Assembly: GCF_000152865.1 (NCBI RefSeq)
Contig: NZ_CH672390.1
Location: 1,550,001 to 1,614,000 of the forward strand
Direction: 5' to 3'
DNA length: 64,000 nucleotides
From: Erythrobacter sp. NAP1
GTDB taxonomy: Bacteria > Pseudomonadota > Alphaproteobacteria > Sphingomonadales > Sphingomonadaceae
Shown: positions 10,872 through 14,075 of the stretch, piece after piece
Position numbering within the stretch: position 1 is the stretch's first letter
Layout of the letters: every line of letters begins with the position of its first letter
Program-made: the position numbers and the translations under genes
The notes under the pieces: model-generated
The model's database searches: none
What the model saw: the letters and a program-made list of their open reading frames with translations, nothing else
Told to the model about the DNA's origin: nothing

Positions 10872-11274
10872 CTCTTCTCCCAACATAGTCGAGCCGCTGT
10901 CGCGCAACTCGCTGTGCCCTGTTTCCGCGTCCCCGATAGCGCGTCTCGATTCGCATCCGCTGCGCGCCTTGGGGGCGATACACGAGCGAATAAGGCACGC
11001 CAAACCCTGCCCTTGCGGCTGATGTCAGACGTGCCCCAATCCGGCACATTGTTACCCTGAATCAGTGTCTTGGTGACAGCCGATTGCGCGCAGAAAGTCG
11101 GCAGCGAAATTAACAGCGTTCGCGCTTTCGCCACATTGTGATAGCTTCGCCACATTCTTGCCGTGATTCGGGGCGCCGTTCGGCAGGAATTTCCACTCGC
11201 GCGCCTCACCTTTGCCAACTGGGCCTTAGTCGGGGGGAGGAAACCCGTCCAAGGTTCGATGAGGGGACGACTTA
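10872..11274. other. divergent intergenic region, tspO / Cys-rich lipoprotein
   Basis: About 400 bases without a credible gene; it must hold the promoters of both flanking genes. The only repeat found is TTCGCCACATT, present as two direct copies at 11127-11137 and 11146-11156, a 19-base period that suggests a tandem regulator site. The short frames on either strand here have no family features and no ribosome-binding sites. Confidence 0.4.
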
Positions 11275-11541
11275 ATGAAAAAGACCAACTTCGCATCGAT
11301 GCTCGCCGTTGCTGGTGGCCTCGCAATCTCGACCGCAGCCTGCACCCCGCCGGCTGAAGAGGGCGACACCGCTGCTGACGAGACTTCGGTTGAAGAAGCA
11401 GCTGAAGAAGTCGCTGACGCTGCTTGTGAAGCTGCTGAAGAAATCGCCTGCTGTGCCGCTGGCTGCTGTGCAGCTGGTTGCTGTGCCGCTGGTTGCTGTG
11501 CCGCTGGCTGCTGTGCAGCTGGTTGCTGCGGTGCCGCCTAA
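11275..11541 (+). CDS. Cys-rich pentapeptide-repeat lipoprotein, CCAAG x5
   Basis: 88 residues. Residues 1-22 look like a lipoprotein signal (basic start, hydrophobic core, then STAAC), making C23 the likely lipidated cysteine, although the lipobox is not ideal. Residues 27-57 are very acidic and alanine-rich. From residue 59 the protein is five exact CCAAG units and a final CCGAA, giving 13 cysteines besides C23. The DNA repeat unit is 15 bases, so copy number could vary by slippage. A strong terminator follows, so it is a monocistronic unit. No family is recognised. Metal binding or a disulfide-linked surface layer are guesses from composition. Confidence 0.78.
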   Translation: MKKTNFASMLAVAGGLAISTAACTPPAEEGDTAADETSVEEAAEEVADAACEAAEEIACCAAGCCAAGCCAAGCCAAGCCAAGCCGAA

Positions 11542-11570: not shown

Positions 11571-11607
11571 CCGGCCGGCGATAACGAGAGTTGTCGCCGG
11601 CCGTTTT
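11571..11607 (+). terminator. rho-independent terminator of the Cys-rich lipoprotein gene
   Basis: A near-perfect stem of about 14 base pairs, starting GGCCGGCGA and ending TCGCCGGCC with a GAGA-type loop, followed by GTTTTGC on the plus strand, 30 bases past the stop. Confidence 0.85.
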
Positions 11608-11626: not shown

Positions 11627-12331
11627 ATGGCCAGCGCTCCCGACACAACTTCTGCCCCGCCCTCCAAGCCCCTTACGACGGTTGAGGCCGCGCATGTGGT
11701 GATCGAAACCATCACGCAGATGGCGCAGGAGCAGAAACCGCTGATGCTGCGCGTCGTGCCCGAAGAGGGCGCGAACTTCTGGAAGCATTACCCGATCAAA
11801 GATGCGCGCGACAAATACTGCAAGTCGCGCTGGTACTATCATGTCCATGCTCCCGGCAGCCGCGACAAGGACGAGCACGGGCACTTCCACCTGTTCCTCC
11901 ACCGCACTCAGCTGCCCGAAGGGCTGGAGCCGAAGGTTTGGCCGCCTCAGGGGGAAGACTGCCGCGCTCACGTCACACATGTCATCGGCCTGTCGATCGA
12001 CACGAACGGCATTCCGCGCGCATGGTTCACGGTGAACCGCTTCGTGACCAACGAATTCCTGTTCCCCGCTGACGTGATGATCGAGCACCTGTCCGACTTT
12101 AACACCGACCACACGCCCGAAGACGACCTCGTGAACCGCTTCGTCACCGCAATGGTCGCGCTCTACCGCGACGAGATCGCGCAGCTGCTGCGCGAACGCG
12201 ACGAGAAGCACGCGGAACTCGTCGCAGAGCACGGTGAAGAGGCGGCGTATGAGAAAGAGAGCGGTATCGAAGTGCTCTCGCAAATCCCGATCGACCTTGA
12301 TGCGAAGCTGGGGTCGCTGGACCTGGAGTAG
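11627..12331 (+). CDS. uncharacterised protein, DUF6969-like
   Basis: 234 residues from the ATG at 11627. Soluble, with no signal peptide; a Ser/Pro-rich N-terminal tail precedes the folded part. The central core has KSRWYYHVHAPGSRDKDEHG followed by HFHLFL, then HVIGLSIDTNGIPRAWFTVN, a pattern I associate with the uncharacterised DUF6969 family. Clustered histidines (HVH, HGHFH) could bind metal, but no enzymatic motif is recognised. The C-terminus is charged and helical. It is a single gene; its stop lies four bases before the left inverted repeat of the GIY-YIG element. Confidence 0.72.
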   Translation: MASAPDTTSAPPSKPLTTVEAAHVVIETITQMAQEQKPLMLRVVPEEGANFWKHYPIKDARDKYCKSRWYYHVHAPGSRDKDEHGHFHLFLHRTQLPEGLEPKVWPPQGEDCRAHVTHVIGLSIDTNGIPRAWFTVNRFVTNEFLFPADVMIEHLSDFNTDHTPEDDLVNRFVTAMVALYRDEIAQLLRERDEKHAELVAEHGEEAAYEKESGIEVLSQIPIDLDAKLGSLDLE

Positions 12332-13505: not shown

Positions 13506-14075
13506 ATGAAAGCTTGTCTCTTGCACACCGTCGGCGCCATTGCCCTCACCTTCGGAATTGCAGCCTGCGTTCCAAGCGCAGAGCCACCTCCCCCTCCGCC
13601 GCCGCCGCCAGCGCCGGTGTCAACGCCTTCGCCGACACCCACCCCTACCCCGACGCCCCCGCCGTTCGTTCAGGAGCCGCAATACGACAACTACCTCGAT
13701 GCGCCGCAGACGCAGGGCATGTGGAGCTATGTGGATGAGCCGGGTGAAAGCCTCGCGATCTTTACGGAAGGATCGGGCGAGCCCGTCTTCATCGTGCGAT
13801 GCGCCGCCGGGATCGTCGCATTGGGTCGCCCGACCGGGAATGTTTCGCCGCAGCCACGCGCCATGAGCGTCACGACCGAAACGACGACGCGCCAGCTTGT
13901 CGCTCAGCCGATCCCTGATAGCGGTCTTGTCGCCGTGGGCCTGCAACCGAGAGATCCGTTGCTCGATGCGATGGCGATCACCAAAGGTCGCTTTGCTATC
14001 GGCACCGAAGGCGAGCGCACGCTGTACCTACCCGCATGGGCCGAAGTGACGCGTGTGATCGAGGATTGCAGGTAG
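13506..14075 (+). CDS. Pro-rich-linker lipoprotein of unknown function
   Basis: 189 residues from ATG 13506 (a GTG six bases earlier is also in frame). The signal peptide ends in a lipobox-like GIAAC, so the mature protein is probably anchored in the outer membrane. Residues about 30-55 are a proline tract (PPPPPPPPP, then TPTPTPTP), a stiff spacer. The remaining 130 residues form a globular domain with two cysteines (VRCAAG and the C-terminal DCR) that could pair. Its pattern of short strands ending in a conserved-looking EDCR tail is not a family I recognise. Confidence 0.72.
   Translation: MKACLLHTVGAIALTFGIAACVPSAEPPPPPPPPPAPVSTPSPTPTPTPTPPPFVQEPQYDNYLDAPQTQGMWSYVDEPGESLAIFTEGSGEPVFIVRCAAGIVALGRPTGNVSPQPRAMSVTTETTTRQLVAQPIPDSGLVAVGLQPRDPLLDAMAITKGRFAIGTEGERTLYLPAWAEVTRVIEDCR

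Follow-up and report, generated by a model that had tools for sequence, protein, structure and literature searches.

A cysteine-repeat lipoprotein and its DUF6969 partner in Erythrobacter: probably a novel unit for handling metal or sulphur

What might a small exported protein that ends in exact cysteine pentapeptides do for its host, and does it act together with another gene? These questions are raised by one locus of the window, the whole 64,000-nucleotide stretch of Erythrobacter sp. NAP1 DNA analysed here. The original prediction had seen in it a displayed, thiol-rich tail for metals or thiols and had, as a speculation, set it in the context of the neighbouring tspO gene. The displayed tail fits the analyses reported below and varies among species, whereas the tspO context did not hold and the adjacent DUF6969 gene had been overlooked. 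Together, the lipoprotein and this partner are probably a unit of a new type that handles metal or sulphur. The features of the locus are as follows.

11261..11266, + strand: ribosome-binding-type GAGGGG ahead of the lipoprotein ATG, read from the sequence
11275-11541, + strand: cysteine-repeat lipoprotein gene, 88 aa, stop codon included (open reading frame and relatives)
11275..11343, + strand: near-invariant signal segment MKKTNFASMLAVAGGLA(x)(x)TAAC, with the predicted lipid-bearing Cys23 at its end (alignment; lipobox by motif)
11344..11448, + strand: acidic spacer of the lipoprotein with a single cysteine, residue 51 (translation)
11449..11538, + strand: five CCAAG units and CCGAA, 12 cysteines (translation, repeat finding)
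11572..11607, + strand: terminator-like hairpin and T run between the lipoprotein and DUF6969 genes (hairpin scans)
11627-12331, + strand: DUF6969 partner gene (PF22308), 234 aa (profile match; no signal peptide by eye)

The lipoprotein gene and its relatives

Translation of the gene confirmed the composition described earlier, with 14 cysteines in 88 residues, an acidic spacer and five CCAAG units (residues 59-83) followed by CCGAA. The units had been called perfect, which is exact for the protein but not for the DNA, where they differ solely at third codon positions (GCC/GCA, GGC/GGT). Tandem Repeats Finder reported the array at 11448-11528 as 15 nt in 5.4 copies with 90% matches, the stronger of its two arrays in the 64 kb. 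Because the five units differ only synonymously, the repeat more readily suggests selection at the protein level than recent slippage.

The positive start, the hydrophobic segment and the lipobox cysteine of a lipoprotein were recognised by motif reading and are conserved in 28 sequences. In the alignment of these sequences, which comprised 27 of the 30 best genus loci plus P0010 (L008, L026 and L029 were left out), A7, S8, A11, G14, G15, L16, A22 and C23 of the signal segment were invariant. The lipobox, STAA-C23, has Thr at position –3, where Leu is usual, and Thr at +2, a residue that means outer-membrane sorting under the general E. coli rule. The CCAAG protein is thus likely a lipoprotein, predicted to be lipidated, and predicted to be sorted to the outer membrane because of its Thr at +2; the lipid anchor proposed earlier stands as a prediction from the motif.

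The earlier statement that the tail belongs to no known family also held, since no entry of Pfam, NCBIfam or the PDB covers the lipoprotein. It scored 18.4 bits against a cut-off of 50 for the PG1828 family (NF050142), and no metallothionein model of Pfam or NCBIfam matched it at E values up to 10, in searches whose HMMER filters drop most weak matches. A promoter scan of the lipoprotein region found none, and Rfam reported one tRNA and nothing else in the 64-kb window.

The strong terminator of the original prediction corresponds to a hairpin at 11572-11603, whose 14-bp stem precedes TTTT. A generic terminator scan of the region returned this single site, versus an average of 1.8 in shuffled sequences. 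Since this count is not above that of the shuffles, the putative terminator rests on the stem length and on the like hairpins of relatives, which were found within 130 nt past the lipoprotein stop in 27/41 loci versus 3/200 random pieces, all drawn from the window.

A protein search with the CCAAG lipoprotein recovered nine relatives among 28 candidates, and a search of 100 genomes of the genus yielded matches (E ≤ 0.1) in 78, of which many were weak. Among the best 30 genus loci, the lipoprotein start MKKTNFASMLAVAGGLAxATAAC is almost constant, and it is followed in proteins of 68-98 residues by tails built of CCAAG, CCAAEG, CAAEG, CEATE, CEGAEC and other units. In named genomes, 40 lipoprotein loci were found, belonging to Erythrobacter, Qipengyuania, Altererythrobacter, Sphingorhabdus, Sphingobium, Novosphingobium and unplaced Sphingomonadales or Alphaproteobacteria; CAPKGCGAKPC is an example of a Sphingobium tail. 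Tail type and repeat number vary from species to species, and to that extent the variable copy number expected earlier was recovered. An assembly artefact, named earlier as a possible refutation of the repeats, was ruled out by other genomes with the same signal sequence and different cysteine-repeat tails.

DUF6969 and the cysteines of the tail

The gene at 11627-12331 belongs to DUF6969, matching PF22308 with 214.4 bits against a curated cut-off of 27. Tblastn located DUF6969 downstream of the lipoprotein, in the same orientation, in each of the 40 named loci that the lipoprotein had retrieved, and ORF calling recovered it in 39 of 41 lipoprotein neighbourhoods. Moreover, the pair is kept in Sphingobium, Sphingorhabdus and Novosphingobium loci whose other neighbours differ. 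In contrast, tspO was rejected as a functional partner: the loci fetched from Sphingobium and Sphingorhabdus in which the pair is kept gave no tspO, and outside the Erythrobacter-type group it was found, among fetched loci, in L062 only. The haem or porphyrin context suggested from tspO is likewise not supported, the tspO/tlyA slot being the same with or without tail cysteines. A Pfam scan of the six neighbours of the pair revealed no metal-resistance gene, no DUF2063 and no Sox gene. A second, Pro-rich lipoprotein-like gene, with no Pfam match, is found at 13509-14075 of the window and lies behind tlyA in many fetched genus loci.

DUF6969 is a large and strongly conserved family. A profile search retrieved 6346 relatives at E ≤ 1e-5 among 8000 candidates scored; 23 columns were invariant in an alignment of 85 sequences and 13 in one of 23 more diverse sequences, and P56, H72, H74, E83, G85, H86, H88, H118, F134, N137, R191 and D192 were invariant in both. 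The structure model is confident (pLDDT 94), and no solved fold stood out in a structure search with it, a result that does not establish a new fold. Profile and single-sequence comparisons with PDB sequences gave no match (below E 1 for the profile search), Pfam gave the protein no second domain, hence no DNA-binding family, and no recognised catalytic family, and a profile comparison with one protein each of the MNIO and DUF2063 families found no similarity. A literature search that covered few subscription journals returned no paper mentioning DUF6969 or NPCAAK, and a broader one by general terms returned nothing on the lipoprotein-DUF6969 system.

Within the genus, the tail cysteines track DUF6969. 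PF22308 was present in 48 of 100 genomes, and the lipoproteins adjacent to it had at least two tail cysteines in 46/47 cases and at least six in 45/47. Any tail cysteine was found in 0/32 lipoproteins of genomes without DUF6969 and in 0/4 of genomes where DUF6969 is placed elsewhere than beside the lipoprotein. All 32 cysteine-free lipoproteins of DUF6969-less genomes occupy the slot between tspO and tlyA, as the window gene does, and their tails are rich in Met, Glu, Thr, Ala or Pro. Three genomes (G029, G034 and G075) hold both kinds: the lipoprotein in the slot has no tail cysteine and the one adjacent to DUF6969 has 8, 9 and 16, respectively. These counts refer to 83 lipoprotein loci in 80 genomes, while the remaining 20 of the 100 gave no match to the lipoprotein or to DUF6969; weak second matches (e.g. 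in G018, G035, G038 and G051) and a second G075 pair (contig C16) were left out. A cysteine tail in a DUF6969-less genome is unlikely to have been missed, because the search profile was built mostly from cysteine-tailed sequences.

The number of events behind this contrast is small. In a TspO+BMFP tree of 73 loci (10 of the 83, with no TspO or BMFP match, were left out), the DUF6969 label needs two changes, one of them forced. The contrast within the genus therefore amounts to few events; the 32 cysteine-free lipoproteins are essentially one clade, close to one event, and on this tree evidence their treatment as independent cases was dropped. In two tails adjacent to DUF6969, Met replaces Cys: L014 has two Cys and seven Met, and L019 (L040, genome G020) has no Cys and ten Met. 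The latter is the sole DUF6969-adjacent lipoprotein of the genus table with no tail cysteine; its DUF6969 keeps all 23 invariant residues, and its genome has no match to the MNIO family (PF05114).

Eight further DUF6969 genes of the genus, i.e. second copies in seven genomes and the sole copy in G060, are preceded by an NPC-type cysteine-repeat protein in 8/8 cases. The NPC-repeat proteins ahead of DUF6969 in L286 and L292-L298 have no lipobox, and their signal MLMVAGGLAVAS resembles that of the window lipoprotein. In L285, L287-L291 and L299, also in the genus, DUF6969 accompanies a different cysteine lipoprotein with a signal like MKKTKLTSMLAVMGGLTLATGAC; the usual neighbours were not found there, and the pair looks as if it were mobile as a unit.

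DUF6969 loci beyond the genus

PF22308 was detected in 20 of 398 genomes sampled across the phylum and in 90 of 385 genomes of the class. By means of a fixed detector, an exported cysteine-repeat protein was found within 7 kb of DUF6969 in 42/77 loci versus 3/57 controls (Fisher p 3e-10). The 77 loci, one per genome, consisted of 17 phylum-sample matches outside the family of the window and 60 class-sample matches, the latter hand-picked mostly for long contigs before their neighbours were seen, some stretches being short at contig ends; the 57 controls were single stretches from the same genomes, paired with all 17 phylum-sample loci and with 40 of the 60 class-sample loci. Inspection by eye, which covered the detector-negative DUF6969 loci and not the controls, revealed a cysteine-repeat protein in six of these 35 (one weak), leaving 29 with none. 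Typical repeats are NPCAAK, CNPCNPC, CAAKKP and CGAK, mostly NPCAAK-like. Moreover, an NPC-type protein was encoded elsewhere in the genome in 7/30 DUF6969 genomes with no clear local one versus 1/36 DUF6969-less genomes, and in G786 and G958 this distant protein sits close to a second DUF6969 match.

SoxA/TsdA-type cytochrome c domains lie within the cysteine-repeat proteins of L124, L126, L128 and L129, and that of L121 matched cytochrome P460 below threshold (22.3 bits versus 27). Several gene families recurred beside DUF6969 (77 loci versus 57 controls): cytochrome c (22 versus 0), rhodanese in two families of six each (12 versus 0) and genes that we take, from reading their sequences rather than from a scan, to be TAXI-type (18 versus 0), FGE-like (17 versus 0), DUF2336 (17 versus 1), TRAP (13 versus 0) and Usp (12 versus 0), these enrichments being biased upwards, since most queries came from genes recurring in the 77 loci. 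The cytochrome c, FGE-like, TRAP and rhodanese neighbours point to a redox or sulphur role no less than to a copper role. In L133-L135, sulphur-transport proteins (two of them in L133), an NPC peptide, DUF6969 and a rhodanese stand in a row. In L122, L123, L125 and L195, DUF6969 lies near an exported FGE/SUMF1-like protein, with NPCAAK proteins on the opposite strand; FGE-type enzymes have cysteines as their substrate residues.

The link to cysteine repeats has exceptions. On two Azospirillum plasmids (L342 and L344), DUF6969 is located behind Mla-type lipid-transport genes, with no cysteine protein annotated within 4 kb in an incomplete gene table, and these loci do not fit the link.

Proposed function and alternative explanations

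The reading that we favour, tentatively and as somewhat short of probable, is that the CCAAG lipoprotein and DUF6969 are a conserved unit in which DUF6969 prepares the cysteines of the tail and the tail binds a soft metal, probably Cu(I). DUF6969, a predicted metal protein, would act in the cytoplasm as a metal-dependent enzyme that modifies or guards the precursor cysteines ahead of Sec export. The exported lipoprotein would then be lipidated and held at the outer membrane, where its finished tail would serve as a periplasmic buffer for soft metals, probably for Cu(I). The intergenic hairpin may keep the enzyme transcript scarce beside an abundant lipoprotein transcript, which would suit a substrate and its enzyme. 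The Cys-to-Met exchange in L014 and L019 is a lead towards a soft metal, because Met is likewise a Cu(I) ligand. A more specific and more doubtful possibility is that DUF6969 represents an unrecognised enzyme family with its own fold that modifies cysteines of exported cysteine-repeat proteins in general.

The gene link gives the large uncharacterised DUF6969 family a concrete candidate substrate, i.e. exported cysteine repeats. If DUF6969 is such an enzyme family, the ribosomally made peptides that bind metal or sulphur would include a second class, independent of MNIO and distributed across Pseudomonadota; the CCAAG lipoproteins of Erythrobacter would be its lipid-anchored branch, and NPCAAK proteins and cytochromes would represent it elsewhere. 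If the favoured reading is right, peptides that handle copper or sulphur would have a way of maturing other than the MNIO enzymes, and it would be clear why a single lipoprotein slot has cysteine tails in one clade and tails of Met and Glu in another.

The closest known systems are the bufferins, captophorins and oxazolins, described in passages of PMC12452194 and PMC13097082 as MNIO-modified exported cysteine peptides that bind copper. Like the CCAAG protein, they are small, exported and built of repeated cysteine motifs, one large group having five-residue EGKCG repeats of the same unit length as CCAAG, and they too have a cytoplasmic partner of their own, encoded within the cluster (PMC12452194, PMC13097082). 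The DAG-RiPPs, RiPP-lipoprotein hybrids mined from MNIO neighbourhoods, similarly combine a lipoprotein signal and repeated cysteine motifs in one precursor, as in NedA with its EGKCG (passages of PMC12636315). A passage search did not find NPC, cytochrome or P460 in the text of PMC12452194, nor Erythrobacter or Sphingo- names in that of PMC12636315. The CCAAG protein is, by its motifs, an exported precursor with repeated cysteine motifs as MNIO peptides are; a Pfam scan found no DUF2282 in it, and EGKCG is absent from its sequence. It differs from bufferins in that there is no MNIO in the window, no DUF2063 among the scanned neighbours and a DUF6969 partner, and from DAG-RiPPs in the partner family and in being known here from sequence alone; the repeats of DUF6969 systems are CCAAG, CAAEG or NPCAAK instead of EGKCG. 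Bacterial metallothioneins are cytoplasmic, short and Cys-dense, and Met-rich Cu(I) peptides are Met-dense. The CCAAG protein resembles both in its short, Cys-dense chain (Met-dense in two relatives) and is unlike metallothioneins in matching none of their families, in its lipoprotein-type signal and in its constant neighbour gene. Periplasmic sulphur carriers, of which SoxY is an example, have a parallel in those DUF6969 loci where cysteine repeats are fused to SoxA/TsdA cytochrome c domains, unlike the window pair, which has no Sox gene among its scanned neighbours.

That the tail is low-complexity sequence from replication slippage, functionless in itself, would suit a 15-nt tandem array whose repeat type is so variable among species; it is scarcely credible against units that differ only synonymously, cysteines kept across many repeat types and absent from the orthologues of DUF6969-free genomes, and the wider link of DUF6969 to exported cysteine-repeat proteins. 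The tail may instead be a plain, unmodified thiolate sponge for metals, with DUF6969 as a cytoplasmic helper (metal sensor, export chaperone or cysteine-reducing guard). Such an arrangement predicts the same coupling of the two genes, and DUF6969 has neither a recognised catalytic family nor a fold match, its enzymatic role being argued from conservation; we nevertheless hold it to be rather unlikely, as the invariant H72, H74, E83, H86, H88 and H118 suggest an active site or a metal site rather than the surface of a general chaperone, and Pfam gives DUF6969 no DNA-binding family. Distinctly unlikely is a role of the cysteine-repeat proteins as periplasmic carriers of persulphide or thiosulphate-derived sulphur, with DUF6969 in sulphur handling: the cytochrome c fusions, the L133 row and the rhodanese and cytochrome c counts, which queries taken from DUF6969 loci favour, agree with it, whereas the scanned neighbours of the window pair include no such genes and the Cys-to-Met exchange suits metal better.

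In a further reading, which we hold to be highly improbable, the tail is modified in trans by an MNIO from another place in the genome and DUF6969 has an assisting role; the protein would then be an unusual bufferin or captophorin. The NAP1 genome does have one MNIO match, L098 (G000:C1:2246029-2246835), but it lies outside the window, about 685 kb away, and adjoins its own BufA1-like bufferin peptide (KEKCYGVALAGKNDC), so that MNIO was rejected as the local enzyme for the CCAAG tail. In the genus, MNIO was found in 43/48 genomes with DUF6969 versus 17/52 without, a contrast confounded by the DUF6969-less genomes being largely one clade, and the MNIO-less G020 is the very genome whose tail next to DUF6969 has no cysteine. 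Against this, G002, G014, G029 and G098 have cysteine tails and DUF6969 and no MNIO match. In the class, MNIO matched in 25/40 DUF6969 genomes, leaving 15/40 with none, versus 16/40 other genomes, and near DUF6969 it was not enriched (3/77 loci versus 2/57 controls). A cysteine tail thus seems not to require an MNIO, although one may help in trans.

Both systems stand side by side in L132 (4118-7633), where MNIO, DUF2063, DoxX, a CGAK-repeat cysteine peptide and DUF6969 form one row, an arrangement that the trans-acting MNIO would also suit. A bufferin-like cysteine peptide (ACKGxxACKG) is present as well in the control stretch L153 (5579-5866), where it counts among the three control matches of the detector.
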